Source: a virus. From it: a stretch of 44,500 nucleotides of DNA. The notes under the pieces are model-generated. The model was not told where the DNA came from and ran no database searches. It saw only the letters and a list, made by a program, of their open reading frames with translations. Positions 13,100-29,740 of this stretch are shown here, in pieces; the stretch's first letter is position 1, and every line of letters starts with the position of its first letter. The stretch lies in the IMG/VR virus record IMGVR_UViG_3300046463_000343, positions 1-44,500 of that record; one strand, written 5' to 3'. The position numbers were made by a program, and so were the translations under genes.

Positions 13100-13103
13100 G
13101 TGT

Positions 13104-16001: not shown

Positions 16002-16731
16002 CGAGCGCCCGCTCCAGTGCCTCGCTCAGCGCGTCCACCGTGACCACGGTCTCGTGCTTGCTCTCCGTGCGGATAGGCTCCCCGGTGGTGCCTTCCAGCC
16101 CTAGCCGGTCCCTGCGGCCGTAGTCGCCTGGGCGGGTGCGTTCCAGCCACCACGCCTGGGCCTGCCACTGCGTCTTGCCCGCTGTCTGGATGTTGTGGAC
16201 GGCCCGGATCTCCGCCGCCGCGCTGGCGCGTTTGATCTGGTGCGCGAACACCACGTACGGCCATTCCGCCGCGAGGAAGCCTGCCGGCCGGTGCCGCCAC
16301 ATGTACTCGCCGCTGGCCTTCTCCGCCGGGTTGCCGAGCGCGTCGGTCTCCGTGTGGTCTTTCCCCTCGAACTGCTCCAGGATGAGGTCCGCGTTTTTGC
16401 CCGTGCTGTCGAGGCGATCCATCTCCAGCTCACCGCGCATACGCCACCGGTGGAACGTGTTCTCCCCGATGCCGGAGAACGCGCACGCTGTTTTGATGTA
16501 GTTACCGCCGGAAACAAGGTTCACGATCGCGTTCATTCGGGTGAGGCTGAGCTTGGTCTCTTTCCCCACGTTCGCTTTGCGGGGTGCCTTGTCGGGGTCT
16601 GTGCGCCGGCGGACGGGCGGTTTCGCGCGTGCCGGGGTGGCCGGTGTCTCCGCCGGTTGTGAAACGGTTCTTTTAGATGGCATCCCTAATCCCCTGTTCG
16701 CCGCGCCGGTGGCGCTCTTGCTTGACCTCAT
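15991..16731 (-). CDS. terS: Terminase small subunit
   Basis: 246 residues from ATG 16731 (ATGA overlap with the glycosyltransferase stop). A basic N-terminal arm (PVRRRTDPDKAPRKANVG) precedes a helix-turn-helix (MNAIVNLVSGGNYIKTACAF, then SGIGENTFHRWRMRGE, about residues 65-100), the packaging-site recognition module. A helical segment (RASAAAEIRAVHNIQTAGKT) resembles the oligomerisation part of small terminases. It should guide the large subunit to phage DNA. If phage cytosines are modified, this protein must recognise modified DNA. Confidence 0.88.
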   Translation of the reverse strand: MRSSKSATGAANRGLGMPSKRTVSQPAETPATPARAKPPVRRRTDPDKAPRKANVGKETKLSLTRMNAIVNLVSGGNYIKTACAFSGIGENTFHRWRMRGELEMDRLDSTGKNADLILEQFEGKDHTETDALGNPAEKASGEYMWRHRPAGFLAAEWPYVVFAHQIKRASAAAEIRAVHNIQTAGKTQWQAQAWWLERTRPGDYGRRDRLGLEGTTGEPIRTESKHETVVTVDALSEALERALGGS

Positions 16732-17486
16732 CGCTTCGGCGTGCGTAAAGCTATCTCAGGGTACCCACTCTTCCCATCCTTGGGGTGGACGAGTGCCGGG
16801 AAGCGCCGGAGCAGGCCTGCTTGGGCTTCATGCTCGGCCTGCACCCGTGCGTCTCCCTGTGCAGCTACCTGGCCGCCCTTGAAGGTACGCATGGGGCGCC
16901 CGTGGGCGGTGTGGTCATCTACCCGTAGGACTCCGCCGTCGCGCTCGTAGTGAATGAGCGTGATCTCGTAGTCCTGCTTGCTTGGTTCCTGGACCCTGAT
17001 TGTGGGGTCATTGATGTAGCCAAAGCAGTTGCCAATGGCGAAGTACAGGCCGACGACGCTGCGGTTCCTCATGTAGAAATGGTTCCCGGTCGCGTTCAGT
17101 CCCCACAGGGTGACGCGCTCGCGCCGGCATTGCTCAAATGCTGAGCTGGTGAGGTCTTCCCATCCTTGGGCGTCAAGGTCTTCGAGGTTCTTTCCGCCTG
17201 GGGCGAGGCGCCGGATTCCGCGTACGTCGTCGTCCATGAGGACCATGCGGTGCCCTGCCGGGAACTGCTGCCGGATGTGGTTCTGGGCATGCCCGTAGCC
17301 GGCCGGTGCGGTGTGCCAGTTGATGGTCGGGTGCTCTGCTTTGGGCTGGGTGTAGTCTCCCTTGGGCCCGACGAATACGTGGATCTTCTCCGGGGGTGTG
17401 CCGTACCCGAGGAGCGTCCCAATGGTGTCTTCGCTGATGGTGTCGGCCCGGTCGTACGTGGGGATGCAGATAGCGTCGTAGGTCAT
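16728..17486 (-). CDS. TET-associated-type GT-A glycosyltransferase
   Basis: 252 residues from ATG 17486 (GGAGACCGCAAGAG upstream, ATGA overlap). GT-A features: N-terminal ICIPTYDRADTI (6-17), VFVGPKG (38-43), and MVLMDDDV with the DxD-type metal/sugar-nucleotide site (85-87). The middle LYFAIGNCFGYIND, QEPSKQDYEITLIHYERDGG and VLRVDDHTAH resemble the TET/JBP-associated glycosyltransferase group of phages. It would transfer a sugar from a nucleotide donor to 5-hydroxymethylcytosine in phage DNA. Its closeness to the TET-like gene, with three small genes between, supports this. Donor sugar unknown. Confidence 0.78.
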   Translation of the reverse strand: MTYDAICIPTYDRADTISEDTIGTLLGYGTPPEKIHVFVGPKGDYTQPKAEHPTINWHTAPAGYGHAQNHIRQQFPAGHRMVLMDDDVRGIRRLAPGGKNLEDLDAQGWEDLTSSAFEQCRRERVTLWGLNATGNHFYMRNRSVVGLYFAIGNCFGYINDPTIRVQEPSKQDYEITLIHYERDGGVLRVDDHTAHGRPMRTFKGGQVAAQGDARVQAEHEAQAGLLRRFPALVHPKDGKSGYPEIALRTPKR

Positions 17487-17650
17487 CTCTTGCGGTCTCC
17501 GTGTGTGGGGCAGTCGGGGTTGGTTGGTTTCGGGTAGCGCGGGTTGTAGCGCCATGGTGGGCAGGAGCATCCGGGGTAGGTGTTCGTCGGCCGATGCCAG
17601 AATGATTCGTAGCCGGTGGCGACGACTTCGGGGTGCTCCTTACTGCTCAT
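17483..17650 (-). CDS. Small Pro/Cys-rich protein, 55 residues
   Basis: Starts MSSKEHPEVVATGYESFWHR at ATG 17650 and ends PTNPDCPTHGDRKR, with a GCSCPPW cluster. Three cysteines and histidines may bind a metal. It is coupled by ATGA overlap to the zinc-finger gene before it and the glycosyltransferase after it, so it is translated within the modification module. Role unknown. Confidence 0.7.
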   Translation of the reverse strand: MSSKEHPEVVATGYESFWHRPTNTYPGCSCPPWRYNPRYPKPTNPDCPTHGDRKR

Positions 17651-17802
17651 TGGGCCCGGTGCTCGCGTTCGTAGGCGGCCTGCTGGGCTTCTGGGCATTG
17701 GGCGTTGTTCTCGTGGTGTGTGGTCATCGTGGCGACGACGAAACTCTTGTTGCAGTACCGGCACTGGTAGCGGTGGTCGCCCTGGCGTGGTTTGTGGTCC
17801 AT
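17647..17802 (-). CDS. C2H2/C2HC-type zinc-finger mini-protein
   Basis: 51 residues from ATG 17802, with a strong GGAGGAG ribosome site. The sequence YQCRYCNKSFVVATMTTHHE then NNAQCPEA has two cysteines, an aromatic, two histidines and a further cysteine, the spacing of a single zinc finger. It could bind DNA or a partner protein of the modification module. The reading frame continues open further upstream into the preceding gene, but the internal Shine-Dalgarno and the codon-position bias favour a separate start here. Confidence 0.7.
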   Translation of the reverse strand: MDHKPRQGDHRYQCRYCNKSFVVATMTTHHENNAQCPEAQQAAYEREHRAQ

Positions 17803-17837
17803 GTGTGCTATCTCCTCCGGGTTGTAGCTCGGGTGTG

Positions 17838-18066
17838 CTATTTGCGTACCGTGATCGTCGTTATGACTGCGTCGACGTGGCCGCCCCGGTCTGCCTTGTG
17901 CTCCGCGCTGCCCGATGGGGGCGAGCTCCTCGTCCATGACGAGCTGCGCGCGCTTTGCTGCCCGGGTCATGATGCCGACGACGGCCACGGCCGGCATGTC
18001 AGCGGTGATGGTGAGGGCGTCCATCTCCTGGTTGAACGCTTCGTAGACGTTCTTGGGGGTGCTCAT
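17838..18066 (-). CDS. Hypothetical protein with apparent +1 frame change
   Basis: Starts MSTPKNVYEAFNQEMDALTI at ATG 18066 (overlap with the TET-like stop). The zero frame is convincing to about MDEELAP near 17915. From there the high third-position GC moves to the +1 frame, which reads SGSAEHKADRGGHVDAVITT and stops at TAG 17840-17838, just before the zinc-finger ribosome site. The zero frame itself stays open, with untypical codons, into the zinc-finger gene. Either a programmed +1 shift at GCC CCC A, a mutation, a sequencing error or a genuine 139-residue fusion would explain this. About 75 residues if shifted. Confidence 0.55.
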
Positions 18067-18944
18067 GCTTCGGTGCTCCTGAACTTTGCTGTGGCTTCGG
18101 CGGCGATCTTTCGTTCACGCGCTGTGCGGCGTTCCGCGCTGCTCGTGGTCTCCTCCGCATAGGTGCGGCAGTCTTTCATCCCGGACATGGCGTAGTAGAC
18201 GATGCTGAACCGGTACGGTTCCATTCGGGCGCCGGCGCGGGATGCCATGGGGGTGACGCCGTGGACAAGGTCCTTCCCGCAGAACCACGAAACCTCGCCG
18301 TCCCTGCACGGGAACGCTATGTCGTATTCGGGGAGGTGGAGGTGTCCGCCGTCCATCCGGTACCGGAGTGTGGGCATGGCTGACCATGTCGGGAAGTTCA
18401 TGCCGTCCCGGTGGTACGGGAGTGTGGCGGTTTTGTTGATGACTCCGCTCGTCCAGAGTGCGTCGTCTTCCATCTTCCACTCAGGGAGGATCTGGTTCAG
18501 GACTTCGCGGTCTGCTGCTGCCCGGTCCGGGAGTAGCTCGTCGAAGGTGCTGGAGAGGTGTGCGGCGAGGTGGGTGAGGGTCTGGTGTTGTGCCGGGAAT
18601 TGGGTGCTGGAGCCGGCCGCACGGCAGGACTCGCGTCCGTTCGCTACCCGCTTCGGTTGCCACCCGAACGTCTTCCCTCCTCCGCCCATGCCTCCACGGA
18701 TTCGGGCGACGGTGTCCATCTCCACCGTTGTGGCTGCCTGGCGGAGTGCTGTGGTCCACCATGGGTCGAGTTTGGTGATGAGCCCGATTATGGTTTGGGT
18801 GTCGCCGTCGATGATCCGGACGATGTCGCCGGCCTCTTCCGGGCTGGGGATGTTCGGGAGGATGTCTCCTACCTTGGTGCCTACCAGGGTGCCTGCTTCG
18901 GCGGGGGTGAGGATTCGGTAGGTGACGTAGTCGGTGATGGTCAT
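18063..18944 (-). CDS. TET/JBP-like 2-oxoglutarate/Fe(II) dioxygenase
   Basis: 293 residues from ATG 18944 (ATGA overlap). The N-terminal region has a CRAAGSSTQF segment (107-116). The double-stranded beta-helix carries YHRDGMNFPTW with the iron ligands His178-x-Asp180, a DIAFPCRDGEVSWFCG stretch, distal ligand His228 in LVHGVTPM, and Arg245 in YRFSIVYY, which would bind 2-oxoglutarate. This order matches phage TET/JBP enzymes, which oxidise 5-methylcytosine in DNA to 5-hydroxymethylcytosine. Partners in this window are the C5 methyltransferase (28490-29740) and the glycosyltransferase (16728-17486). An ordinary 2OG oxygenase of other substrate is the alternative. Confidence 0.82.
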   Translation of the reverse strand: MTITDYVTYRILTPAEAGTLVGTKVGDILPNIPSPEEAGDIVRIIDGDTQTIIGLITKLDPWWTTALRQAATTVEMDTVARIRGGMGGGGKTFGWQPKRVANGRESCRAAGSSTQFPAQHQTLTHLAAHLSSTFDELLPDRAAADREVLNQILPEWKMEDDALWTSGVINKTATLPYHRDGMNFPTWSAMPTLRYRMDGGHLHLPEYDIAFPCRDGEVSWFCGKDLVHGVTPMASRAGARMEPYRFSIVYYAMSGMKDCRTYAEETTSSAERRTARERKIAAEATAKFRSTEA

Positions 18945-19123
18945 GCCGTGATGGTCCTGCCTGTTTTGGTGTCCCAGATGGTGTACTCGAATTCTCCGCC
19001 GCAGACCTTGGTGAGGTGGTCTGCTGCGCGTTGGGCGCCGGCGCGGGTCCAGAACTTGTCCGCTACCCCGATGGCCCGGTACGTGCCGGTGAGCCATGCG
19101 TGCAGCTCGTAGCGGCGCCTCAT
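18941..19123 (-). CDS. Hypothetical protein, 60 residues
   Basis: Basic start MRRRYELHAWLTGTYRAIGV, then DKFWTRAGAQRAADHLTKVC and a beta hairpin FEYTIWDTKTGRTIT. The layout strand-helix-strand is compact. It is coupled on both sides by ATGA overlaps and precedes the TET-like gene. Function unknown. Confidence 0.72.
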   Translation of the reverse strand: MRRRYELHAWLTGTYRAIGVADKFWTRAGAQRAADHLTKVCGGEFEYTIWDTKTGRTITA

Positions 19124-19374
19124 TTCTTGCCGCCGATGCGGGCGAGGATGGGGCCGAGCTTCTCCGCGATCGCGAGCATCTTCGGGGCCTGAGCGTACAG
19201 TCGCTCCAGGTACTCGTCCTCCGTGATGCCCTGGGCTGCTGCTGGGTCCATGGGGCCCGGTTCCACCGTGATCCCGAGGACCGTGACCGGGCCTAGGCCG
19301 TTCTTCGCCATGGCGCGGTAGCGGGCCCGTGCCGCGTCCTTCTGCTCTTCGGTCAGGTCACTCCATGCGCTCAC
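19120..19374 (-). CDS. Hypothetical protein, 84 residues
   Basis: Starts at GTG 19374 (GTGA overlap): MSAWSDLTEEQKDAARARYR, a short central PVTVLGITVEPGPMDP segment, then a helix (EYLERLYAQAPKMLAIAEKL) and a basic end. No family recognised. Confidence 0.73.
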   Translation of the reverse strand: MSAWSDLTEEQKDAARARYRAMAKNGLGPVTVLGITVEPGPMDPAAAQGITEDEYLERLYAQAPKMLAIAEKLGPILARIGGKK

Positions 19375-19982
19375 TTTGTCTGCTCCTCGAGGATTGTCTT
19401 CACTGTGGCTGCGTTGCTCTTCGTACCCTTGGTTTTGGCGAGCTCGTAGAGCTGCTCCTGGATCCACTGGAAGATCGGAATGGGGTACTCAATGATGAGG
19501 GAGCGGCGGCTCGCTGCCGCCCACTTGTCTTCCGCCTCCACCGGGGCTGCTGCGGTGTCGGGGGTGTCTCCGGGGAGTGCCGGGGGTGCTGCGAGTTCCT
19601 GCTCAATGAGGAGGTCCTGGATGTCGTCCGCGTTGTACCCGGTCCCGTCCGTGTCCGGAAGATCCTGGATGAGGGCGAGGAGGTCAGCGTTGTCGTAGCC
19701 GGCCTTGTCGGCGGTGCGGTTGTCCGCGACGACGATCCGGGCTGCGGTGTCGTCGTCCACATCCACGTAGTCTGCCTCGATGTGCGTCCACCCGAGCTGG
19801 CGGGCTGCTTTGAGTGTGTGGTTTCCCGCGAGGACCTCGTGCCGGCGGCCCGTGTGGGTGCCCTTGTTCACGATGATGGGTTTGAACTGGCCCAGTGTGG
19901 CGAGGCTGTCCGCTACTGCGTCGACGTCGCCGCGGCGCGGGTTCTGGTGGTAGTGCTTGAGCTTGCTCACCGGTGTCTTCAC
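19371..19982 (-). CDS. ParB-like (ParB/sulfiredoxin fold) protein 1
   Basis: 203 residues from GTG 19982 with a strong GGAGGAG site. The ParB-like domain covers about 1-110: LKHYHQNPRRGDVDAVADSL, LGQFKPIIVNKG, HEVLAGNHTLKAARQLGW and IVVADNRTADKAGYDN. The usual GxRR phosphate/nucleotide loop is replaced by AGNHTLKAA, as in many phage ParB-like proteins near DNA methyltransferases. The C-terminal half is acidic then helical. Proteins of this fold can be DNA binders, nucleases or nucleotide-using enzymes; which applies is unknown. Confidence 0.85.
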   Translation of the reverse strand: MKTPVSKLKHYHQNPRRGDVDAVADSLATLGQFKPIIVNKGTHTGRRHEVLAGNHTLKAARQLGWTHIEADYVDVDDDTAARIVVADNRTADKAGYDNADLLALIQDLPDTDGTGYNADDIQDLLIEQELAAPPALPGDTPDTAAAPVEAEDKWAAASRRSLIIEYPIPIFQWIQEQLYELAKTKGTKSNAATVKTILEEQTK

Positions 19983-20149
19983 TCGGTCTCCTCCTGGCAG
20001 TTGTGGCCGGCTGTGAATGCTTGCAGTGTGGCGGCGCCGTGGCGGTTGTTTGGTCCGTTGGTGCCGTCGTGGCATTTCTCGCACTCCACGTAGATCCGGC
20101 CGGCCGCGTTGGTCAGGATGAATCCGGAGTCGTTCGGTACCGGCGTCAT
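19979..20149 (-). CDS. Small protein with one CxxC, 56 residues
   Basis: Begins MTPVPNDSGFILTNAAGRIY and has ECEKCHDGTNGPNNRHG and a later HNCQEE. The Cys/His set could form a zinc site. ATGA and GTG-overlap coupling on both sides. Function unknown. Confidence 0.7.
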   Translation of the reverse strand: MTPVPNDSGFILTNAAGRIYVECEKCHDGTNGPNNRHGAATLQAFTAGHNCQEETE

Positions 20150-20352
20150 GGCTGGTCCCCGCTGATCTGTTCGATGAGTTTGTTGAGTTGGGCCCGCTGG
20201 TCCACGTAGAACCGTGTGACCTTGGACCGGTTCGCGCTCGTGTCCCTCGGGCTGCCCTTGCCGTCGAGGAGCTCCCACGGGTGGTCGATGAAATGGTTGC
20301 ACCGCTCGATGGCTGCCTGTGCCTGCTCAGCGGTCTCGATTCGGCCGGTCAT
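20146..20352 (-). CDS. Helical hypothetical protein, 68 residues
   Basis: MTGRIETAEQAQAAIERCNH leads an extended helix, then HPWELLDGKG and a second helix VTRFYVDQRAQLNKLIEQIS. Coiled-coil-like pairing is possible. It is coupled to the ParB-like gene before it. Function unknown. Confidence 0.72.
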   Translation of the reverse strand: MTGRIETAEQAQAAIERCNHFIDHPWELLDGKGSPRDTSANRSKVTRFYVDQRAQLNKLIEQISGDQP

Positions 20353-20987
20353 GGCCTGGGGGCTTTCTGGCCCGTTGCAGCCTCCACGGCGGCGAGGATC
20401 GTCTCCGCCGGGCTGCTGGTGCCGTGGCGCTTCGCTGCCGTGTCGAGGAGGTCCCGCACTACCCAGTATTCGTCGAGGTCGTAGTCCAGCATCATCCCCT
20501 TACTGTCGCGCTCCTCCCAGTCCTTCCACTGGTGGAAAGGTGCCGGCGCCGGGGTGCTGCTCTTTTCCACCGGTGCCGGGGCGACGTCGTCCGCGAGCGT
20601 CGCCATATCGGCCGGGGTGAATCCTGTCCCGTCGAGGGTGCTCATGCCCTGCACAAGGGCGAGGAGCTGCTCCGGGTCATAGGTTGCGAGGTCGCTGGTG
20701 CGGTTGTCCGCGAGGACAATCTTCGCGGCCGTGGTGTCGTCGACATCCACGTACACTGCGGCGATGGTCTCCCACCCGAGGATGGTTGCGGCCTCGTGGG
20801 TGTGGTTGCCGGCGAGGATCTCGTCCGGGCGTCCGGTGAGGGTGCCGATGTTCACGACGATCGGCTTGTACTGGCCCAGCGTCCGGAGGGACTCCTGGAT
20901 AGCGGGGATGTCGCCGCGACGCGGGTTGCGCGGGTATTTGTGCAGCTCCGCCACCTTGGCGTCGCCTCTGCTCTTGATGGTGTCCAT
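20349..20987 (-). CDS. ParB-like protein 2
   Basis: 212 residues. The ParB-like domain (about 10-115) reads LHKYPRNPRRGDIPAIQESL, LGQYKPIVVNIG, DEILAGNHTHEAATILGW and IVLADNRTSDLATYD, closely parallel to ParB-like protein 1 three genes downstream, so the two are probably duplicates. The C-terminal part (YDLDEYWVVRDLLDTAAKRH) is helical. The ATG follows TACGAT by six bases and a strong terminator lies upstream, so a new leaderless transcript covering the ParB-TET-glycosyltransferase-terminase chain may begin here. Confidence 0.85.
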   Translation of the reverse strand: MDTIKSRGDAKVAELHKYPRNPRRGDIPAIQESLRTLGQYKPIVVNIGTLTGRPDEILAGNHTHEAATILGWETIAAVYVDVDDTTAAKIVLADNRTSDLATYDPEQLLALVQGMSTLDGTGFTPADMATLADDVAPAPVEKSSTPAPAPFHQWKDWEERDSKGMMLDYDLDEYWVVRDLLDTAAKRHGTSSPAETILAAVEAATGQKAPRP

Positions 20988-20999
20988 ACATCAATCGTA
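20988..20999 (-). promoter_or_regulatory. Leaderless -10 box TACGAT
   Basis: TACGAT six bases before ATG 20987 of ParB-like protein 2, located after a strong terminator, so a promoter is needed here for the downstream chain. Confidence 0.55.
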
Positions 21000-21027
21000 G
21001 TAGCGCCGCAAGGTGGCCCGGGTACGC

Positions 21028-21074
21028 AAAAAGGAGCGCCGCCCAACGATTCCCCAATCGTTGGGTGGCGCTCC
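21028..21074 (-). terminator. Strong intrinsic terminator
   Basis: 19-base arms (21033-21051 and 21056-21074, one non-canonical pair) with a four-base loop. On the minus strand the stem is followed by five T (21032-21028). It ends the operon 22030-21087. Confidence 0.85.
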
Positions 21075-21086
21075 GGTCTGTGAGGG

Positions 21087-21308
21087 CTATGCCCGTTTTG
21101 TTTTGCGTTCCTCGATCAGGTCATGCTCTGAGATGAACGCTGTCACGATAAGCAACTCTACCGCGTTTTCCTCCGGGGTTCCTTCCCCTTCGATGGTCTT
21201 GCACTTCGCTACCGTGGCGTCGTACTCCTCCGGGGTGAGGGTGCCGTCGGCCCGGCAGGATTCGAGGGCCTGGGCCATGGCGCGGCCTGCGTCTATCGGG
21301 TGCATCAT
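21087..21308 (-). CDS. Hypothetical protein, 73 residues
   Basis: MMHPIDAGRAMAQALESCRA, then GTLTPEEYDATVAKCKTIEG and a helix VELLIVTAFISEHDLIEERK. All-helical, two cysteines. The gene ends just before a strong intrinsic terminator and so closes the operon starting at promoter element D. Function unknown. Confidence 0.72.
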   Translation of the reverse strand: MMHPIDAGRAMAQALESCRADGTLTPEEYDATVAKCKTIEGEGTPEENAVELLIVTAFISEHDLIEERKTKRA

Positions 21309-21550
21309 CGTTCGCCCCTGACCTGTTCGTTGAGCCAGTTGGCGGCGACGGACCGGAGCTGGGCCTCCGACCGTACCTTGTTGCCGCCGCGCTCGTAGTC
21401 GCAGGTGTTGATCTCGTCGAGGAAGCCTTCTTCGCCTTTGACCTCCACCCGGTTTCCGTTCGTCCGGAACAGGGTGCCCGTCGCTTTGTGGACTACTTGA
21501 ATGACTGTGTGGAAGTCGCCTGCTCGCTTGCTGTACGGGTCCTTGCCCAT
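21305..21550 (-). CDS. Hypothetical protein, 81 residues
   Basis: Starts at ATG 21550 (AAGGGGAATAG upstream): MGKDPYSKRAGDFHTVIQVV, then KATGTLFRTNGNRVEVKG and a late helix (LRSVAANWLNEQVRGER). Beta-rich first half and helical end. Function not recognised. Confidence 0.72.
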   Translation of the reverse strand: MGKDPYSKRAGDFHTVIQVVHKATGTLFRTNGNRVEVKGEEGFLDEINTCDYERGGNKVRSEAQLRSVAANWLNEQVRGER

Positions 21551-21555
21551 GGTCT

Positions 21556-21816
21556 CTATTCCCCTTCGGTGTCGGTGGTGAGCTCGATGAGCCACTGGTA
21601 GTCGTGGCCGCCCATGTAGGAGGCCTCGATCTCGAGCGCCTCGATCGTCTCGATGTCGCAGCCGAGCTCGGTGCTGAGCGCGTACTGGGCCGTCGTGATG
21701 GCGAACTCTTCGCTGAGGTTCATCCCGGATGCGACGGTGATCTTTGCGGAGGCGATGCCGCCGCCGTCCAGCTCTTCGGTGTCCATTTCAATGACTGTGG
21801 CTGTGATGGTCTGCAC
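21556..21816 (-). CDS. Hypothetical acidic protein, 86 residues
   Basis: Starts at GTG 21816 with AAGGGAAGTAGG upstream. MQTITATVIEMDTEELDGGG is followed by ASAKITVASGMNLSEEFA and a strand-rich end (DYQWLIELTTDTEGE). Overall acidic with alternating beta strands. Function unknown. Confidence 0.72.
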   Translation of the reverse strand: MQTITATVIEMDTEELDGGGIASAKITVASGMNLSEEFAITTAQYALSTELGCDIETIEALEIEASYMGGHDYQWLIELTTDTEGE

Positions 21817-21820
21817 GGCC

Positions 21821-22030
21821 CTACTTCCCTTCGGTGATGACGGTGAGGGAGCGGGCTGCTGCGCCGCAGGTGCGGGTGTGGTCGGTGGTGAGGCGGAGGT
21901 AGGCGGCGCCGCCGACGATGCTGATGACTTCCCAACGGGCGTCGTTGCCTTCGCGGTGCTGCACGTCGCCTTCGGCGCGGGGTGCGAGGGTGACGATGTC
22001 GCCGGCGTTGATGTTGGTCTTCTTGTTCAT
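21821..22030 (-). CDS. Hypothetical small beta-barrel protein, 69 residues
   Basis: MNKKTNINAGDIVTLAPRAE, then DARWEVISIVGGAAYLRLTT and AAARSLTVITEGK. GDIVTL with alternating strands resembles SH3-like small barrels (KOW-like), a guess from pattern only. It is the first gene behind promoter element D, with ribosome site AGGGAGAGACC. Genes at 24060 and 26225 occupy the same position behind similar leaders and have similar beta-rich content. Confidence 0.73.
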   Translation of the reverse strand: MNKKTNINAGDIVTLAPRAEGDVQHREGNDARWEVISIVGGAAYLRLTTDHTRTCGAAARSLTVITEGK

Positions 22031-22074
22031 GGTCTCTCTCCCTAGAGTCCGTATCGGGTTGTTCCGATAGATAA

Positions 22075-22103
22075 ACCATAACCTAGGTTTCGATTGTTGA
22101 CAA
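22075..22103 (-). promoter_or_regulatory. Promoter/operator element D with -35 box
   Basis: -35 TTGTCA (22098-22103), 17-base spacer containing GAAACCTAGGT, -10 TATGGT (22075-22080). The predicted start is 22068, and the transcript would open with an ATCGG/CCGAT hairpin. First gene starts at 22030 with AGGGAGAG. Confidence 0.8.
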
Positions 22104-22120
22104 GTCGGGGCGCAACGGTA

Positions 22121-22200
22121 CGCCGCCGTACCCGCGGATACGGCGGCGCCCGGAGCCCTAGCCGGCGGCACGCTGGGGGCAGTGGCCGCCGGCCGGGCTC
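22121..22200 (-). terminator. Two consecutive hairpins, putative terminator region
   Basis: Arms 22153-22169/22185-22200 (imperfect) and 22121-22130/22139-22148 (perfect 10 bases), between the stop at 22237 and promoter element D. No T-tract. This fills most of the 206-base gap 22031-22236. Confidence 0.55.
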
Positions 22201-22236
22201 TGCCGGTTCGAGGTGAGGGAGCACCCCTGCCGGCTC

Positions 22237-22908
22237 CTAGCCCGGAAGCGTGTTGCTGCCTCCGGTGATCTGCGCGAGTAGGTCCCTGTTCGCCTGGCGG
22301 AGCTGCCCGATGGTCCGGGCCCGGCGGAGAAGCTTGCCCGTGAGTACCCGGTTCCGGAGGAGTAGCCTCATGCGCTCGCGGTGCTCGCGGTGGAACATCC
22401 CCCAGATCTGCATGGGATCCTTGAGCGGACTCACCCGGCGGAGCGCGCGTACCTGGTCCTCCAGCTCCCAGATGCGCTGCTGCCGTTCGGCGTTGACCGA
22501 CCGTAGCTGGTGGATCGTGGCCGCCTCCATGCCGGGCCCGTCCCATGCCGTGCCGTCGTTCACATCCACCCGGATGCGCTCCGGGTCGCCGTCGATCGTG
22601 ACCAGCATCTTCCCGTCAACGGTGGAGCGCTGGACCATCACCTCGACGTCGCCGTGGGCGATGGCGCACGCCTCGTGCGCGATGAGCTCCCCGTCGTCGT
22701 ACTGTGCCGGGATGTATGCGGCCGGTATGCCGCGGGCCGTGGTGTCCGTGTCGCTGACATGTATGGCCGCGATCTCTAGCGCCCGTTCGAGCTGCTCCTC
22801 GTAGCCCTGCAGCGTGTCGTACTGCCCGATTCCCCGGGATGATTCGAGGATGCCGCCGATGATCCGGTGAAGCTCCTGCGCTTCCGTATGGCTGGCTGTT
22901 TCCGTCAT
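22237..22908 (-). CDS. Hypothetical protein with C-terminal coiled coil, 223 residues
   Basis: Starts at ATG 22908 with GGAGGGAGAG upstream. The N-terminal part is helical (EAQELHRIIGGILESS), the middle beta-rich (EVMVQRSTVDGKMLVTIDGD), and residues about 150-215 form a long charged helix (VNAERQQRIWELEDQVRALR, then REHRERMRLLLRNRVLTGKL) with coiled-coil character. No enzyme motif. Two hairpins follow its stop. Function unknown. Confidence 0.76.
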   Translation of the reverse strand: MTETASHTEAQELHRIIGGILESSRGIGQYDTLQGYEEQLERALEIAAIHVSDTDTTARGIPAAYIPAQYDDGELIAHEACAIAHGDVEVMVQRSTVDGKMLVTIDGDPERIRVDVNDGTAWDGPGMEAATIHQLRSVNAERQQRIWELEDQVRALRRVSPLKDPMQIWGMFHREHRERMRLLLRNRVLTGKLLRRARTIGQLRQANRDLLAQITGGSNTLPG

Positions 22909-23072: not shown

Positions 23073-23266
23073 TCCGTCTCTCCTCCGGTGTGCTCCTGCT
23101 TGGGCTCGAGTTCGGCCTCGAGCCGTACCATTTCTGCGTCAGCGTGCGCGAAGTCGGCTAGGTCTGCCGTGGTGGCGGTGCGCCCGATCATGACGACGCG
23201 GGTGACGCGGACGGCGGCCGTGTTGCGGCGCTGACGGGCCTTCTCCCAGTCCTCGTGCGTACTCAC
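23069..23266 (-). CDS. Hypothetical protein, 65 residues
   Basis: Starts at GTG 23266: MSTHEDWEKARQRRNTAAVR, then VTRVVMIGRTATTADLADFA and an acidic helix ending KQEHTGGETE. Probably helical with a basic first half. Coupled on both sides. Function unknown. Confidence 0.7.
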   Translation of the reverse strand: MSTHEDWEKARQRRNTAAVRVTRVVMIGRTATTADLADFAHADAEMVRLEAELEPKQEHTGGETE

Positions 23267-23460
23267 CGGCGCTTGTCCTCGATCGTGCCGAGCGGGTAGA
23301 TCGGCGGGTGCTCGATGTCGTGTGTGTAGTCGCAGCCGTCCTCGACGCAGGCGTAGCGGGTGATTGCCCGCCATCCCGTGTAGGCGATGGCGAGTGTGTG
23401 GTGGCCGCAGGCCGGGCACGCCGCGCGTGGCGGCTCTGTCGTCTCTACTGTTCCTGTCAT
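23263..23460 (-). CDS. Zinc-ribbon protein, 65 residues
   Basis: MTGTVETTEPPRAACPACGH, then ITRYACVEDGCDYTHDIEHP. CPACG and CVEDGC provide four cysteines in a classical two-knuckle zinc ribbon. It may bind nucleic acid or protein. Coupled to neighbours by ATGA and GTGA overlaps. Confidence 0.75.
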   Translation of the reverse strand: MTGTVETTEPPRAACPACGHHTLAIAYTGWRAITRYACVEDGCDYTHDIEHPPIYPLGTIEDKRR

Positions 23461-23873
23461 GCGTTCAGCTCCTCAATGGTTGCCATGAACTTAGCCGCGT
23501 AGCTGGTGTCCGTGGTGCGGTGGTCGATGTCGTCCAGCCATGCCTCGACTACTTCCGTTGCCTTCGGGAAACGGTTCTGGAGCTCGGTATCGATGACCCA
23601 GTACAAGGCGTTTTTCGTCGTCGGGAGCGTCGCGTAGTCGAGCGCTTCAAGGTCGCGGTAGTCCTTGAGGAGGGCCTCCGTCGTTGTGACCTTCGCGAGG
23701 GCCTCCAGCCGGTGCCGGTACTCCGTGGTCATCGCGAGGAGGACGATGGTCTCCGCCTCTTCGCGGTCGGTCTTTGCCCCGAGGGTGTCGAGTGCCTGCA
23801 TCATCATGCCCGTAGGCATGGCCTTGATTTTGGCGGTGAGCTTCTGCTTCGCCGTGGTTCCTGTGGTGCTCAT
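23457..23873 (-). CDS. Helical hypothetical protein, 138 residues
   Basis: MSTTGTTAKQKLTAKIKAMP, then MMMQALDTLGAKTDREEAET and a run of helices to the end (ATEVVEAWLDDIDHRTTDTS). The Lys/Thr-rich basic start and acidic rest recall small regulatory proteins, but no family was recognised. Its stop overlaps the next ATG. Confidence 0.74.
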   Translation of the reverse strand: MSTTGTTAKQKLTAKIKAMPTGMMMQALDTLGAKTDREEAETIVLLAMTTEYRHRLEALAKVTTTEALLKDYRDLEALDYATLPTTKNALYWVIDTELQNRFPKATEVVEAWLDDIDHRTTDTSYAAKFMATIEELNA

Positions 23874-23875
23874 GT

Positions 23876-24055
23876 CTACTTACCTACCCATTCCGGCTTA
23901 GTCGTTTCGGTGGCGAGGCCCGTTGCGAGCTCGAGCTCGGCCTGAGCCATGGGGACCCGGAAGGCCCGGAATGCGTGGCGGCTGAAAAACCAGGCCTGCC
24001 GCTGTCCCTTCTTTGTAGTGGTGAACCAGATCTCGCGGGGCGTCTTCGTTGCCAT
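23876..24055 (-). CDS. Hypothetical basic protein, 59 residues
   Basis: Starts at ATG 24055: MATKTPREIWFTTTKKGQRQ, then AWFFSRHAFRAFRVPMAQAE. Basic, aromatic-rich strands followed by a helix. A nucleic-acid-binding role is possible but not shown. Function unknown. Confidence 0.7.
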   Translation of the reverse strand: MATKTPREIWFTTTKKGQRQAWFFSRHAFRAFRVPMAQAELELATGLATETTKPEWVGK

Positions 24056-24059
24056 GGTC

Positions 24060-24254
24060 TTAGGCCTTCGGGGTCCAGATGCCCACAACCTTGCCGGCGG
24101 GGTAGTGCTGCACCCGCGGGCTGTTGTTCCACTTCGCGTCCACGGTGCCGTCCTCGTGGACCTCGATGTTCGTGAGGCGGGACTTGCTGCTCGTGCGGTC
24201 CCCAACCTGGAGTTCGGTAGCCGGTACGGTGGTGAAGTTCTCGAAGTTGCTCAT
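24060..24254 (-). CDS. Hypothetical small beta protein, 64 residues
   Basis: MSNFENFTTVPATELQVGDR, then LTNIEVHEDGTVDAKWNNSP and YPAGKVVGIWTPKA. VGDR followed by strands looks like a small barrel. It is the first gene behind promoter element E, with ribosome site AGGGAGAG in a leader shared with elements D and F. Function unknown. Confidence 0.73.
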   Translation of the reverse strand: MSNFENFTTVPATELQVGDRTSSKSRLTNIEVHEDGTVDAKWNNSPRVQHYPAGKVVGIWTPKA

Positions 24255-24299
24255 TGGATTCTCTCCCTAGAATCGTTCGCCCTTGGTGGCGATAAATCA

Positions 24300-24316
24300 A
24301 GCATAACCTAGGTTTC
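24300..24316 (-). promoter_or_regulatory. Promoter/operator element E
   Basis: GAAACCTAGGTTATGCT with -10 TATGCT (24300-24305). No good -35 hexamer was seen, but A-rich sequence lies upstream. Predicted start 24293, followed by a TCGCC/GGCGA hairpin and leader to ATG 24254. Confidence 0.75.
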
Positions 24317-24363
24317 GATCGTTGGGTGACCGTTCCCGAAAGTTTCTCGAAAAAGTTTTCCGC

Positions 24364-25560
24364 CTACCGTCCCGGGCCCACCTGGTCCGGTGAAATGCCC
24401 AGCATCATTGCCGCCTCGACAAGCTCCTGGCCCGGGGTCCACGCCTGTTCCGCGAGGAGGCCCGGCCGTACCTTGGCCCGGAGTTTCCCGACCACGATCG
24501 CCGCTCCTCCGGTGCGGTCCGGTTCCCGTAGCTGCTTCCCCGCAATGATGTCGTCGAGGTCCCCGAGGGTGTAGCCGGCCGCCTCGATGCCGGCGGCGCC
24601 GGTGCCGGAGACGAGCCGGCCGAGGGCCTCCATGTCGTAGGATGCGAGATCGCTTGCGCGGTTGTCCACGAGCACGATCCGCTTCTCTGTGTCTGCGTCC
24701 GCGTCCACCCATGAAACGCCGATGCGCTCCCACCCGAGCTGCTTCGCTGCTTCCATGAGGTGATTACCCGCGAGGACCCTGTTGTTCCGCTTGTTCACCA
24801 CGATCGGCCGGTACTGCCCATGGATCCGGAGTAGGCCCGTGAGCATCCCAACGTCACCCTGGCGCGGGTTCCCCGGGTACGGTACAAGGTCCCGGATGAG
24901 CGCCCACGCCGTGCTCACCGTGTTCGGGGCCGCAGTGGTGGTGCTGATCTCCTCGACCAGCCCCAGCCGTGTGAGCATGACGTCCACGGCGTCTGCCTGC
25001 GCCCGCGGGAGCGTACCCCTCCACGCCTCGTACGCGGCTGGGCTGATGCTGCCCCGGGCCGTGCCCATCTGGAAGCTCAGCGGCTTCGCCTGCGGCGGCG
25101 GTGCCGGCTCGGCGTCGTCGCGCTCGCCGTCGTCCTGGCCGCGGTCCGGGTTGAATGCGTCGAGGTCGATGTCCGGGAGCTCGAAGTCCTCTTGGGTGTA
25201 GCCCGTGCCGAGAAGATCCGGGAGGCCGGCCGCGAGCTCGAACGCTGCTGCCGGGTCGGTATACCCGGCGTCGGACGCGCGGTTGTCCGCGAGCATGATC
25301 TGGACCGCCTGAGCCTCCGTGCAGTCCGTGAACGTCACGCCGATGCTCGCCCACCCCAGCTTGCGGGCTGCCTTCCACGTGTGCGTACCGGCGAGGATAT
25401 GCCCCGTCGGCCGGTGGACGAGGATTGGTTTGTACTGGCTGTTCGTCCGGAGGCTCTCCGTGATGACCGCGACGTTCCCGCGGCGGGCGTTGCCGGGGTG
25501 CGGCCGGATGCTCCCAATAGGGACCTGCTCGGCGTCTACCCGGATGTTCTCGGCGCTCAT
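24364..25560 (-). CDS. Tandem ParB-like protein 3 (two ParB-like domains)
   Basis: 398 residues with two ParB-like domains. The first (about 8-120) shows IRPHPGNARRGNVAVITESL, SQYKPILVHRPTGHILAGTH and IMLADNRASDAGYTD. The second (about 222-335) shows LVPYPGNPRQGDVGMLTGLL, GQYRPIVVNKRNN, VLAGNHLMEAAKQLGW and IVLVDNRASDLASYD. An acidic linker (GQDDGERDDAEPAPPP) and a helical segment separate them. With the two single-domain proteins this gives four related domains in about 6 kb. Function unknown; an architecture of two domains in one chain suggests a pseudo-dimer. Confidence 0.85.
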   Translation of the reverse strand: MSAENIRVDAEQVPIGSIRPHPGNARRGNVAVITESLRTNSQYKPILVHRPTGHILAGTHTWKAARKLGWASIGVTFTDCTEAQAVQIMLADNRASDAGYTDPAAAFELAAGLPDLLGTGYTQEDFELPDIDLDAFNPDRGQDDGERDDAEPAPPPQAKPLSFQMGTARGSISPAAYEAWRGTLPRAQADAVDVMLTRLGLVEEISTTTAAPNTVSTAWALIRDLVPYPGNPRQGDVGMLTGLLRIHGQYRPIVVNKRNNRVLAGNHLMEAAKQLGWERIGVSWVDADADTEKRIVLVDNRASDLASYDMEALGRLVSGTGAAGIEAAGYTLGDLDDIIAGKQLREPDRTGGAAIVVGKLRAKVRPGLLAEQAWTPGQELVEAAMMLGISPDQVGPGR

Positions 25561-25880
25561 CTGATGACGTGCTTCACTCGCTCGCAGAATCCGGTGATGA
25601 GGTGGGCGCCGGTCGGTGATGATTTGCGGGTGGAGTAGTGGATTGTGACCTGACGGGCGTCCGCGTAAATGCTGTGGACCTCATTCGGGTCAAACCCTAG
25701 GAGCCTGGCGATCTCCCCGAGCGTCTCGCGACTGACCGTCGCGTCCTCGATGGTGAGGGGTGCCTGCGGCTCCCAGACAATTTCGTCCGGTTCGCCGGGG
25801 TGCTTGATGCAGTACTCTCCGGATTTGGAACCGAACTTCGTGATGTCTCGCGTCTGGACGTAGCGCTCTTCGTTTTCCAT
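25557..25880 (-). CDS. GYDP-module protein, 107 residues
   Basis: Starts at ATG 25880, six bases after TACACT. A GTG at 25901 is a less likely alternative. The N-terminal half is beta-rich (FGSKSGEYCIKHPGEPDEIV). Residues about 57-91 carry one module ETLGEIARLLGFDPNEVHSI then QVTIHYST, related to the two modules in the protein at 11855-12247. The C-terminus is basic. A perfect 17-base inverted repeat lies upstream. Its stop overlaps the tandem ParB-like gene. Confidence 0.74.
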   Translation of the reverse strand: MENEERYVQTRDITKFGSKSGEYCIKHPGEPDEIVWEPQAPLTIEDATVSRETLGEIARLLGFDPNEVHSIYADARQVTIHYSTRKSSPTGAHLITGFCERVKHVIR

Positions 25881-25892
25881 ACCCTTAGTGTA
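25881..25892 (-). promoter_or_regulatory. Leaderless -10 box TACACT
   Basis: TACACT six bases before ATG 25880, downstream of the 17-base inverted repeat. AAGGG directly before the ATG is too close for a normal ribosome site. Confidence 0.45.
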
Positions 25893-25904
25893 CTGGGGCA
25901 CGAA

Positions 25905-25944
25905 AGAGCCCCGGCCACGTAAGGGAGTACGTGGCCGGGGCTCT
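25905..25944 (-). terminator. Perfect 17-base inverted repeat, putative terminator
   Basis: Arms 25905-25921 and 25928-25944 pair perfectly around a six-base loop. It lies after the stop at 25988 and before the box driving the gene at 25880. Only TTT follows the stem on the minus strand. Confidence 0.65.
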
Positions 25945-25987
25945 GGTCGGTGCTGCCCCGGGGTCTCACGGCCGGAGTAGCTGGTCT

Positions 25988-26212
25988 TTACCCTACACGG
26001 GGTGCGGGGTCATACGGTAGCCCGTCTGCGGTCCGGAATGATTCCGGCCGGGCGTGATCGAGGTGGAAGATTTTCGTACCGTAGCGGATGGCTGCGGAGA
26101 CCCTGCCGGAGGCATAATTCCTGCAGCAGGTGCAGTCCCGGATTTCGATGACGTCGGCGCCCCGAACCTCTTCGAGACTGCCCTCGTACGTCATGCCCAG
26201 CGGTGTTGCCAT
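25988..26212 (-). CDS. Hypothetical Cys-containing protein, 74 residues
   Basis: MATPLGMTYEGSLEEVRGAD, then EIRDCTCCRNYASGRVSAAI and a C-terminal HLDHARPESFRT segment. A CxCC cluster and histidines could hold a metal. It ends the operon behind promoter element F, before a hairpin. Function unknown. Confidence 0.7.
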   Translation of the reverse strand: MATPLGMTYEGSLEEVRGADVIEIRDCTCCRNYASGRVSAAIRYGTKIFHLDHARPESFRTADGLPYDPAPRVG

Positions 26213-26224
26213 GGCCTTACTCTC

Positions 26225-26509
26225 CTATGCTTTCGAGGTATGCCTGACCGTGATGGTGACCTGTGCGCTCGCTGCCTTGAGGCCGAGGCCTGAGCTCTGG
26301 CGGGTGCCGTCATGGAACTCAACAACGGCGTCGAAGGTGCGGATTTCGCGGATGGTTGCGGGCTCCCACCATTCGGTGAGGACGATGCTGCGGGCGTCGG
26401 TGGTGACGCGCTTGGCGCTGACCTCCATGCCGACGGTGAGGTTCTCTGCCTCTACCCGCGCGGCCCACTCGTTGGCCCGTTCCTGGTTCTTTTTGCTGAG
26501 CTTTACCAT
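26225..26509 (-). CDS. Hypothetical protein, 94 residues
   Basis: Starts at ATG 26509: MVKLSKKNQERANEWAARVE, a basic helix, then small-barrel-like strands (LTVGMEVSAKRVTTDARSIV, ATIREIRTFDAVVEFHDGTR). First gene behind promoter element F. The combination of helix and barrel is similar to other first genes behind elements D and E. Function unknown. Confidence 0.74.
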   Translation of the reverse strand: MVKLSKKNQERANEWAARVEAENLTVGMEVSAKRVTTDARSIVLTEWWEPATIREIRTFDAVVEFHDGTRQSSGLGLKAASAQVTITVRHTSKA

Positions 26510-26552
26510 GGTGTCTCTCCCTAGACTCCGTTCGGCTTGTGCCGATAGATAA

Positions 26553-26581
26553 ACCATAACCTAGGTTTCGATTCCTGACAA
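26553..26581 (-). promoter_or_regulatory. Promoter/operator element F with -35 box
   Basis: -35 TTGTCA (26576-26581), 17-base spacer, -10 TATGGT (26553-26558). Core and leader are nearly identical to element D, suggesting duplication of the promoter-leader unit. Predicted start 26546; first gene at 26509. Confidence 0.8.
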
Positions 26582-26588
26582 CTGCTGG

Positions 26589-28493
26589 CTAGGCTGCCTT
26601 CTCCGCGAGCTTCACCACAAGGTCCTGCAGGATGCTCCCACCCCCGGTCTCGTCGCGCTCGATACCGTCCACCACCCCGTCGACCTCCTTCCGTTTGTGC
26701 TCGATCAGTTCCGCGATGTCGTAGTCAATCGTGCCCTCCGTCAGCATGAGCCAGCCCGTGACGTCGCTGTCCTGGCCGCGGCGGTGGAACCGGTCGAGTA
26801 CCTGGTCCATGCCGCCCGGTGTCCAGCCCTGCTCGACTATGAGCGCGTTTGATGCTGCGGTGAGTGTAATGCCTAGGCCGGCTGCTTTGATCTGCCCCAC
26901 GAAAACTCTGGTCTTGGAATCCTCTTGGAATGCCCGGACCGCTGCGTCCTTTTGTGTCTCGGATAGTTTGCCGTTGTGCGTGACCGCCTTGAGTGCTGTG
27001 GCGAGCGGCTCCATGATGTCATGGTGCCACCCAAAGATCCCCAGCTTGGCCGTGGCGTCGCCGTCGAGGAACGTCTTCGCCCAATCCACCGCCGCTTTGT
27101 GCTTGGCCCTGGCTGCCAGCTTCTTGAGGTGTGTGATCGCGACAAGGTGCTGCGCGGCCTCCGCCCGGAGCTCCGCCTTCCACGCCGCCTCTTGCGCCTC
27201 CACGCTGCTGTTCCCTGCCCGGAGTGCCGCCTCTTCTGCCCGCTTCCCCAGGTACTCGACGATGTTCGCCTCAGCGTGCCGGTACTCGACCATGATGCGC
27301 GGGTCTCCCTCGACCACGATCGGGGCCCAGCGGCGCTCCGGGGCGCCCTTCCAGACGTCGACCTTGTTCCGGCGGACGTAGCATGTTGCTCGCATGTCGC
27401 GGTTCAGTGCGACGTTCCTGCCCGCGTACTTGGCCTTCGCTTTCTTCCCGCCGAAGTCTTCGAGCCGGCCGACGGCCTCGATCTGCGTCCACACCTCGGC
27501 CTGTTTGTTTTCTATCGGGGTGCCCGACAGGCACAGCCGTGCCGTGTCCTGCTCTTGCGGGACCCTTTCGAACAGTTCCAGTGTTGCCCGGGTTCGCATG
27601 ATGGCGGGATTTTTGATGAGGTGCGACTCGTCCGCGACGGCGCCGCGCGGCGTCGGAAGGATCGGCAGCCATGCGTCGAGGATGTCGTAATTGATGATCG
27701 TGATATCTGCCCATGCGAGCGGCTCCTGGGCTTTCCGCCCCGACAGGACCTGGACCGTCGCGTACGGGAGCGCCCGTTCCGCCTCGCGGCGCCAGTTCCG
27801 TTTCAGTGATGCCGGCACGACGATGACGGCGGGCATGGCCTGGAGCTGGTGGATCACCCCGAGCGCCTGGGCCGTCTTCCCCACCCCCGGCTCGTCCCCG
27901 ATGATGCCCCGCCCGGCCGCGTGCCGCACCATGTACTCGATCCCTGCCCGCTGGTAGTCGTAAGGCTCCAGCCCGAAACCGTCCCGGAGCTGGTAGTCGG
28001 TGTCGCCGGCGGCGCTCGCCGTGATCCGGAGCGCCTCCGCCTTACCCTGCTCGATCCGGAGCATGGCCTCCATACTGACAACCGCGTCGACCTTGGCCGC
28101 CCATGCCGCGAGCCGGAGCGCAGCCTCCCCTGGGACCACCCAGCAGCGGGCCGGCTGGAACCAGCTCGCGCCCTTCATGCTGGCGATGCCGGCGCCGAGC
28201 GTCTGGTCCGCGAAGTCGTACCGGACCTCGAAATGGGTGCCCGTGTAGTGGAGCTTCGGTTTCTCCGCCACCCGGAGGAGGCGGACGCGGGCCTGCCCTT
28301 TCATGCCGAGCCGGAACTCGTCCGCGAACTCCCGGACCGCGGCGGCCTGGTGTATCGGCACCATCCATCCTTTGAGCTCCAGGCTGTACGCCCGGCCGGG
28401 CAGCCGCGTGGCCGCCCGGACGAGTGTGCTGTCGAATCCCTCGAACCGGATGATGAATGAGCCGCGCTCGACCGTCACCGTTCCTGCGGTCAT
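26589..28493 (-). CDS. SNF2-family (SMARCAL1-like) DNA helicase/annealing ATPase
   Basis: 634 residues from ATG 28493 (ATGA overlap with the methyltransferase stop). Two N-terminal HARP-like modules (GFDSTLVRAATRLPG to WMVP; then FEVRYDFADQTLG to CWVVP) precede the motor: motif I IGDEPGVGKT (198-207), VVPASLKRNW, DESH (288-291), LCLSGTP, and C-terminal motif VI QVLDRFHRRGQ. SMARCAL1-type enzymes anneal or remodel forked DNA. It is likely to serve phage replication or recombination. The adjoining methyltransferase could also suggest a role linked with modified DNA, which is inference. Confidence 0.88.
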   Translation of the reverse strand: MTAGTVTVERGSFIIRFEGFDSTLVRAATRLPGRAYSLELKGWMVPIHQAAAVREFADEFRLGMKGQARVRLLRVAEKPKLHYTGTHFEVRYDFADQTLGAGIASMKGASWFQPARCWVVPGEAALRLAAWAAKVDAVVSMEAMLRIEQGKAEALRITASAAGDTDYQLRDGFGLEPYDYQRAGIEYMVRHAAGRGIIGDEPGVGKTAQALGVIHQLQAMPAVIVVPASLKRNWRREAERALPYATVQVLSGRKAQEPLAWADITIINYDILDAWLPILPTPRGAVADESHLIKNPAIMRTRATLELFERVPQEQDTARLCLSGTPIENKQAEVWTQIEAVGRLEDFGGKKAKAKYAGRNVALNRDMRATCYVRRNKVDVWKGAPERRWAPIVVEGDPRIMVEYRHAEANIVEYLGKRAEEAALRAGNSSVEAQEAAWKAELRAEAAQHLVAITHLKKLAARAKHKAAVDWAKTFLDGDATAKLGIFGWHHDIMEPLATALKAVTHNGKLSETQKDAAVRAFQEDSKTRVFVGQIKAAGLGITLTAASNALIVEQGWTPGGMDQVLDRFHRRGQDSDVTGWLMLTEGTIDYDIAELIEHKRKEVDGVVDGIERDETGGGSILQDLVVKLAEKAA

Positions 28494-29740
28494 GCTGCCT
28501 GCTCCTCTTCTGCCTGCTGGAATGCTTCGATCATGTCCATGAGTGCCGCGTAGGCCTGCTGGGGGACGACGCCGTTCCCGCATGCCTTGAGCTGCTCGCT
28601 CCGGGTTAGCCCGATCTCCGGGGCTGTGAGCCATCCGTCGGGGAGGCCCATCATCCATTCTGTGAACCGTGCGCTCAGTCGCTCTGCCCCAGTGCGTCCA
28701 GTAGGCTCTGTTGGCCGGGGAGCTCGCCGGCCGGTGACCCGTTCCCAGCGTTCGATTGCTGCGGTGTAGTCGCCCCAATTCGTACTGACGCCGACGGGAG
28801 TGTCAGGTCCCCGCTGGATCCGCGCTGGTTCGGTCCGCCCTTCTCCCCATCCGATGCTTTCGGCGTCGGTAGCAGGCTGACTGCCGTCCGTAGGTTCGGT
28901 CCGCCTGTCTTGTTCGGGCCCGCGCCCGGTCCTGTTGTGTCCGAAGTCGTCGGCGTAGGCAGCATCAGTACGCGTGTATTTAGTGGCGGTGTGTTCCGTA
29001 GGAACTGGCTCGGTCCGCCGTTGTTCGCCCCGTCCTGCGTCGTCACCGTCGGCAGCAACAGGACCTCCGCCTCCGTGTCCCCATGCCTCAGCAGCCACTC
29101 GTGGCTCTTCGACCCCACCGGCCCGCAGCCCTTCCATGCCCTGGCTGTTGGCGTCCCCAGTATTGCGTCGTCGGGCGAGAACAAAGACCCTGAACCTTGC
29201 GTGGCAGGCTCCCACGTCGGCAGCCCGGAGACCACGCCATTCCGCATCGTACCCGAGGTCGGAAAGGTCTCCGAGAACACGTCCAAGTGCTCGCAAAACA
29301 GTCCCTCCGTCGCCGGTGTCTCCCATACATCCCGGGCACTGTTCCATATCGCTAGCGGCTTCGGCACTGTAGGCTCCTCGTACGTTTTCCCAGACAACCC
29401 ACTCGGGCTGCAGCTCGGCAATGGCTTCTCTCATCTGGACCCACAGGTTTGAGCGGGTCCCTTCATTCATGCCGCGGCGCTTGCCGGCGGCGGAAAGGTC
29501 CTGGCATGGGGTGCCGCCCGACACTATGGTTATGCGGCCGTGGCGGCGGCCGAGCCCGGCCCAGTCGATCTTCGTCATGTCCCCGTAGTTGGGGATGCCC
29601 GGGTATCGGTAGGCGAGGATCTTCGACGGGGCTGCATCGAATTCGCTGAACGCGGCGGTGCGGGCGTTGAATGCTGCCTCGACGGCCATGCCCAGCCCGT
29701 TGTAGCCGGCGCACAGCTCCAGTACCGTTGCCTCGCTCAT
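28490..29740 (-). CDS. C5-cytosine DNA methyltransferase
   Basis: 416 residues. Motif I ELCAGYNGLGMAVEA (8-22), motif IV GGTPCQDLS with catalytic Cys79, motif VI WENV (Glu118), motif VIII HARFRVFVLARR (180-191), and motifs IX-X RLSARFTEWMMG (354-365) and GNGVVPQQAY (388-397). It methylates carbon 5 of cytosine with S-adenosylmethionine. Between VIII and IX, where the target-recognition domain is expected, the sequence is Gly/Asp/Arg/Thr-rich and a second long frame overlaps it. 5-methylcytosine made here would be the substrate of the TET-like enzyme. Coupled to an HTH gene before and the helicase after. Confidence 0.88.
   Translation of the reverse strand: MSEATVLELCAGYNGLGMAVEAAFNARTAAFSEFDAAPSKILAYRYPGIPNYGDMTKIDWAGLGRRHGRITIVSGGTPCQDLSAAGKRRGMNEGTRSNLWVQMREAIAELQPEWVVWENVRGAYSAEAASDMEQCPGCMGDTGDGGTVLRALGRVLGDLSDLGYDAEWRGLRAADVGACHARFRVFVLARRRNTGDANSQGMEGLRAGGVEEPRVAAEAWGHGGGGPVAADGDDAGRGEQRRTEPVPTEHTATKYTRTDAAYADDFGHNRTGRGPEQDRRTEPTDGSQPATDAESIGWGEGRTEPARIQRGPDTPVGVSTNWGDYTAAIERWERVTGRRAPRPTEPTGRTGAERLSARFTEWMMGLPDGWLTAPEIGLTRSEQLKACGNGVVPQQAYAALMDMIEAFQQAEEEQAA
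28675..29421 (-). CDS. Second, overlapping reading frame inside the methyltransferase gene
   Basis: A 248-codon frame in +1 relative to the methyltransferase, opening with MPSCSPSGLSGKTYEEPTVP near 29421. It has family-like content: VWETPATEGLFCEHLDVFSE, SGTMRNGVVSGLPTWEP, and repeated LLPTP motifs (LLPTVTTQDG, MLPTPTTSD, LLPTPKASDGEKGGPNQRG). LPTP-repeat sequences of this kind are, to my memory, common in actinobacterial and phage proteins linked to C5 methyltransferases. In the sampled stretch 29041-29120 third positions are almost all G/C in this frame and mixed in the methyltransferase frame. It may be a real overprinted gene or reflect a constrained linker. No clear ribosome site was found. 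Confidence 0.45.
   Translation of the reverse strand: MPSCSPSGLSGKTYEEPTVPKPLAIWNSARDVWETPATEGLFCEHLDVFSETFPTSGTMRNGVVSGLPTWEPATQGSGSLFSPDDAILGTPTARAWKGCGPVGSKSHEWLLRHGDTEAEVLLLPTVTTQDGANNGGPSQFLRNTPPLNTRVLMLPTPTTSDTTGPGAGPNKTGGPNLRTAVSLLPTPKASDGEKGGPNQRGSSGDLTLPSASVRIGATTPQQSNAGNGSPAGELPGQQSLLDALGQSD

Follow-up and report, generated by a model that had tools for sequence, protein, structure and literature searches.

A predicted thymine-directed TET/JBP and glycosyltransferase cassette in the genome of an actinobacterial virus

Introduction

TET-TAGT cassettes, in which a TET/JBP oxygenase gene is accompanied by a gene for a TET-associated glycosyltransferase (TAGT), were reportedly described by Iyer et al. 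in 2013, and the phage TETs characterised by Burke et al. in 2021 are said to act on 5-methylcytosine (5mC). In thymidine hypermodification, tailoring enzymes like those in the loci compared here act after 5-hydroxymethyluracil (5hmU) (PMC6449724), and this post-5hmU tailoring is attributed to Lee et al. (2018, 2022) in the form in which that work is cited in PMC6449724 and PMC11955845. A cassette of Rhodococcus phage Tonitrus, homologous to the one analysed here, has been described as thymidine hypermodification (PMC11955845). As of 2019, no glucosylated 5hmdU had been reported in phage genomes (PMC6449724); later reports are possible.

In this study, we analysed the whole of a 44.5 kb virus record (hereafter the window), which may be incomplete. 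The window has a GC content of 65% and carries nearly all of its genes on the minus strand, and the host of the virus is an actinobacterium. We consider it likely that the virus encodes a thymine-directed DNA hypermodification cassette, in which a TET enzyme would form 5hmU and a TAGT would add a sugar, and that a C5-methyltransferase (C5-MTase) encoded in the same genome is separate from it.

Results

Organization of the cassette

The open reading frames for the TET protein, the glycosyltransferase (GT) and the C5-MTase are intact, as the first-pass annotation had reported. The cassette and its neighbours comprise the following genes:

14373–16001, minus strand: terminase large subunit
15991–16731, minus strand: terminase small subunit; start codon in an ATGA overlap with the stop codon of GT; 3' border of the cassette
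16728–17486, minus strand: divergent TAGT with a GT-A fold (from profiles and fold), predicted to glycosylate a hydroxymethyl base; the exchanged slot
17483–17650, minus strand: 55-aa ORF rich in Cys/His, coupled to GT by ATGA overlaps
17647–18066, minus strand: small ORF with a zinc-finger-like motif at its C-terminus
18063–18944, minus strand: TET/JBP 2OG-Fe(II) dioxygenase (from profiles, fold and catalytic residues), predicted thymine-5-hydroxylase on DNA
18941–19123, minus strand: 60-aa ORF, coupled, upstream of TET
19371–20084, minus strand: ParB-like protein 1 (start codon probably further in)
20349–20987, minus strand: ParB-like protein 2
24364–25560, minus strand: ParB-like protein 3, double-domain (phrog_8071)

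Because ATGA overlaps join the TET gene, the zinc-finger ORF, the 55-aa ORF, the GT gene and the gene for the terminase small subunit, these five make up a single coupled unit. Small genes, earlier described as zinc-finger genes, are indeed present between TET and GT, and one of them gave a weak C2H2-type zinc-finger match (E = 0.036). They were found in near-identical relatives only, and in two of these, the IMG/VR contigs L011 and L012, the zinc part (17647–17802) is a separate ORF. Family searches with the zinc-finger and 55-aa genes gave no informative family.

Elsewhere in the window, a glycosyl hydrolase catalytic core of 342 aa is encoded near the terminase genes (12260–13288, minus strand; PF11790, E = 1e-47; no PHROG match). 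An RNA ligase gene (phrog_14859; 3018–4136, minus strand) adjoins the head genes and occupies the same place in Arthrobacter phage Ottawa.

The TET/JBP oxygenase

The TET protein (293 aa) has the residues expected from the first-pass annotation: H178 and D180 of the HRD motif, the distal H228, and R245, all four of them unchanged in 99/99 homologues. Profile searches placed it in the TET/JBP family, with a strong match to phrog_6059 (E = 4.2e-59) and a match to Pfam Tet_JBP (PF12851; E = 9e-7) whose 28.7 bits lie below the curated cut-off of 34.9; a relative in contig G034 clears that cut-off with 35.6 bits. An AlphaFold model (pLDDT 87) was used for a fold search of the PDB, in which matches 1 to 26 were all TET2, CcTET, NgTET1 or CMD1. 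The fold search contradicts the label queuine tRNA-ribosyltransferase that the family bears in phrog_6059 and in GenBank (e.g. NC_051582.1 gp2); the label is apparently a propagated mis-annotation. Homologues were found in 85 phage records, nearly all from actinophages, and in 256 IMG/VR stretches, of which the best 80 were used.

The residue aligned to NgTet1 H297 and TET2 H1904, the histidine that contacts the base in those structures, is Leu, Met or Ile in 99/99 TETs. The replacement argues against a TET2-like reading, yet it is no proof of thymine.

The glycosyltransferase

The second enzyme (252 aa) is a GT-A glycosyltransferase, as had been proposed, with a conserved DDD at residues 85–87. 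It matched phrog_25200 (E = 7e-17) and the Pfam TAGT family (PF20691; E = 4.6e-4), the latter with 20.6 bits against a cut-off of 27.5; its homologues in L011 (GT2), L017 and Mycobacterium phage Rich clear this cut-off. The structural model (pLDDT 89) gave TM scores of 0.70–0.76 with viral TAGTs and 0.86 with another phage glycosyltransferase. With its GT-A fold, DxD and a TET as neighbour, the protein is a divergent TAGT. When the GT profile was searched against PDB sequences, only SRP9 matches came back, which were judged to be chance.

GT-A folds match many glycosyltransferases that do not act on DNA, and TET occurs without a recognised tailoring enzyme in phage KayaCho and several of 90 related loci. 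Both observations would suit a virus whose TET makes 5hmU and whose GT modifies a virion protein or the cell envelope, leaving DNA that bears 5hmU only. We consider this quite improbable, given the resemblance of the GT to the TAGT family in profile and fold, its translational coupling and its position in the same slot as the DNA-acting amino-acid:DNA transferase (ADDT) of other loci.

Exchange of the GT gene between near-identical phages

L011 and L012 share 96–99% identity with the window in the TET region and about 97–98% in the terminase genes, but their GT differs. In L012, similarity to the window stops at 17483 and resumes at 16726, and the GT homologue in between is only 30% identical. 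L011 carries two tandem GTs, 52% and 30% identical to that of the window, and its divergence begins slightly upstream, in the small genes. The breakpoints lie near the edges of the GT gene in both contigs. Since TET and the flanks are 96–99% identical while the GTs differ, the tailoring gene has been exchanged and its surroundings have stayed nearly constant. Such an exchange would fit a sugar coat under host-defence pressure.

Conservation of the cassette in related loci

The gene order ParB-TET-[tailoring]-(kinase)-terminase is common to the 90 related loci, 85 of which have a ParB gene ahead of TET. The tailoring slot holds ADDT (PF18724) in 49 loci, a count made up of 32 plus a divergent family of 17 that was included because two tested members score as ADDT. 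A P-loop kinase (PF18751) occurs in 52, an FAD oxidase in 24, a TAGT in 14 and PIG-L in 6; these contents are largely the thymidine-hypermodification toolkit. The cassette of the window is homologous to the ADDT/kinase loci, and GT is its only tailoring enzyme; neither a P-loop kinase nor a PIG-L deacetylase was found elsewhere in the window.

Phage Ottawa (L002) is collinear with the window across 15 genes, has a TET with 64% identity and encodes all three ParBs. Ottawa has a P-loop kinase in place of the GT and lacks a C5-MTase. Along a TET tree that did not include the phage enzymes characterised by Burke et al. (2021), the tailoring labels switch many times; GT requires 8–10 changes, and the sisters of the window's TET carry either a kinase (the Ottawa group) or ADDT and a PLP enzyme (L015). 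One TET type therefore feeds alternative tailoring chemistries.

Several neighbouring genes were recorded along the way. Upstream of its ParB-TET cassette (9925–11900), Ottawa encodes a carboxylate-amine ligase and a glutamine amidotransferase, possibly for extra tailoring. Slot proteins of L065 (6507–7454), L069 (1526–2506) and L079 (10472–11398) had no Pfam or clear PHROG match and are candidate new base-tailoring enzymes. In Pelagibacter phage HTVC112P (L106; 6958–9180), an FkbM-type methyltransferase comes after a distant ParB-TET pair, and there is no C5-MTase.

In most loci the cassette ends at terminase genes, an arrangement that would be expected if the modification served chiefly to mark phage DNA for terminase packaging and less to protect it from restriction. 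We regard this role as very improbable: Lilmac1015, Klevey and Altadena have TET-GT with no terminase gene in the annotated stretch, and a function cannot be read from gene order alone. A packaging role would be compatible with the chemistry of the thymine reading.

Dissociation of the C5-MTase from the TET cassette

The C5-MTase identified in the first-pass annotation proved to be a member of that family in profile searches (PF00145, E = 5e-28), with both the PCQ and ENV motifs. It lies 9.5 kb away from TET, in another translationally coupled group:

26589–28493, minus strand: SNF2-type helicase, coupled to the C5-MTase; also in Ottawa
28490–29740, minus strand: C5-cytosine methyltransferase (PF00145), judged an independent accessory gene outside the pathway

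That annotation had joined the three enzymes into a cytosine pathway, in which TET converts the 5mC that the phage C5-MTase has placed at set sites to 5-hydroxymethylcytosine (5hmC) and GT glycosylates the 5hmC. All three genes are intact in one genome, 4/45 IMG/VR TET contigs also have a C5-MTase, and phage TETs that work with C5-MTases have been published (Burke et al. 2021, to the extent cited in PMC13222311). However, PF00145 was missing from 18/18 complete actinophage genomes that encode this TET family, six of which have GT, and from two phages bearing a distant TET, and it was absent from the other 41/45 IMG/VR contigs. All four positives come from the 16 longest contigs (≥35 kb); in one of them, L070, the C5-MTase lies ~2.5 kb upstream of TET, within an ADDT/FAD/kinase cassette. 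In the reverse direction, 0/49 contigs with homologues of the window's C5-MTase encoded a TET, with the positive control detected, and a further count gave 0/32; these homologues sit in TET-less phages.

Both search directions and collinear Ottawa thus speak against the C5-MTase as the default partner of TET, and we rejected it in that role. Together with the replaced histidine and partner genes that are thymidine-hypermodification enzymes, these results make the cytosine pathway unlikely. The proposal of a TET-GT base-hypermodification cassette is itself well supported; cytosine as its base is not. The C5-MTase looks, from its distribution, like a separate, common phage gene, and a phage genome that encodes both a C5-MTase and a TET does not necessarily combine them in one pathway.

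The C5-MTase gene contains a second open frame (28675–29421, minus strand), +1 to the MTase frame, with protein-level similarity in 44/80 MTase homologues; among the rows checked, its relative frame was almost always the same. In several homologues (e.g. L128–L133), the MTase C-terminal block lies in this second frame, an arrangement like that of a split or overlapping methyltransferase.

Discussion

Thymine is the more likely substrate base on sequence comparison, because the TET clade adjoins ADDT, P-loop kinase, FAD oxidase and PLP enzyme genes and because the Tonitrus system was published as a thymidine system. A search of 25 records for the thymidylate synthase/dUMP hydroxymethylase family (PF00303) found no member, which makes TET the likely source of 5hmU; formation of 5hmU at the nucleotide level by a thymidylate synthase homologue was rejected for the same records. 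Thymine is thus favoured by the absence of a C5-MTase from most TET-bearing relatives, the missing thymidylate-synthase route, the replaced histidine and the tailoring partners taken together. That ADDT and the kinase would be specific for thymine rests on the M6/ViI precedent in the literature.

We propose that, after replication, the TET/JBP enzyme would use Fe(II), 2-oxoglutarate and O2 to convert some of the thymines in phage DNA to 5hmU by hydroxylating their methyl group. The adjacent TAGT would then move a sugar from a nucleotide-sugar to the new hydroxyl; the product, a base-J-like glycosyl-5hmU, may shield phage DNA against host nucleases. The ParB-like proteins probably help to target the reaction or couple it to DNA, and the C5-MTase would work separately from the TET-GT cassette. 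More broadly, we lean slightly toward the view that actinobacterial phages make in situ glycosylated 5hmU by TET/JBP and TAGT as a counterpart of base J, with the sugar switched by exchange of the GT gene alone between phages that are otherwise nearly identical. Since Arthrobacter phage Lilmac1015 and Mycobacterium phage Rich are GT-type relatives in culture, this reading is directly testable.

The individual components, like the cassette in its general form, are already known or predicted, and the thymine-glycosyl version without kinase or deacetylase and with GT exchange is a variant of them. Compared with the actinophage ParB-TET-ADDT-kinase cassette (Tonitrus, PMC11955845; Mycobacterium Bclasvirinae, Gordonia and Microbacterium phages), the window has a homologous TET (about 38–64% identical), ParB upstream, tailoring next, terminase after and no C5-MTase in the cassette, but its slot holds GT instead of ADDT and kinase. 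It shares TET followed by a TAGT-like GT with the TET-TAGT cassettes (PF20691) of Arthrobacter phages Lilmac1015 and Klevey and Mycobacterium phage Rich; these add a PIG-L deacetylase and sometimes a kinase, which the window lacks, and its TAGT scores under the Pfam cut-off. The TET fold and catalytic residues are shared with phage TET and C5-MTase cytosine hypermodification, whereas here there is no conserved linked C5-MTase, the base-contacting histidine is replaced and the partners are different. The sister loci share ADDT, kinase, FAD and PLP tailoring enzymes and a 5hmU intermediate with M6/ViI thymidine hypermodification; in M6/ViI, 5hmU arises at the nucleotide level, whereas here TET probably forms it in DNA. 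Finally, kinetoplastid base J (JBP1/2 and JGT) has the same predicted logic of thymine hydroxylation in DNA followed by glycosylation; the organisms differ, and ParB partners stand here in place of the J-binding domain.
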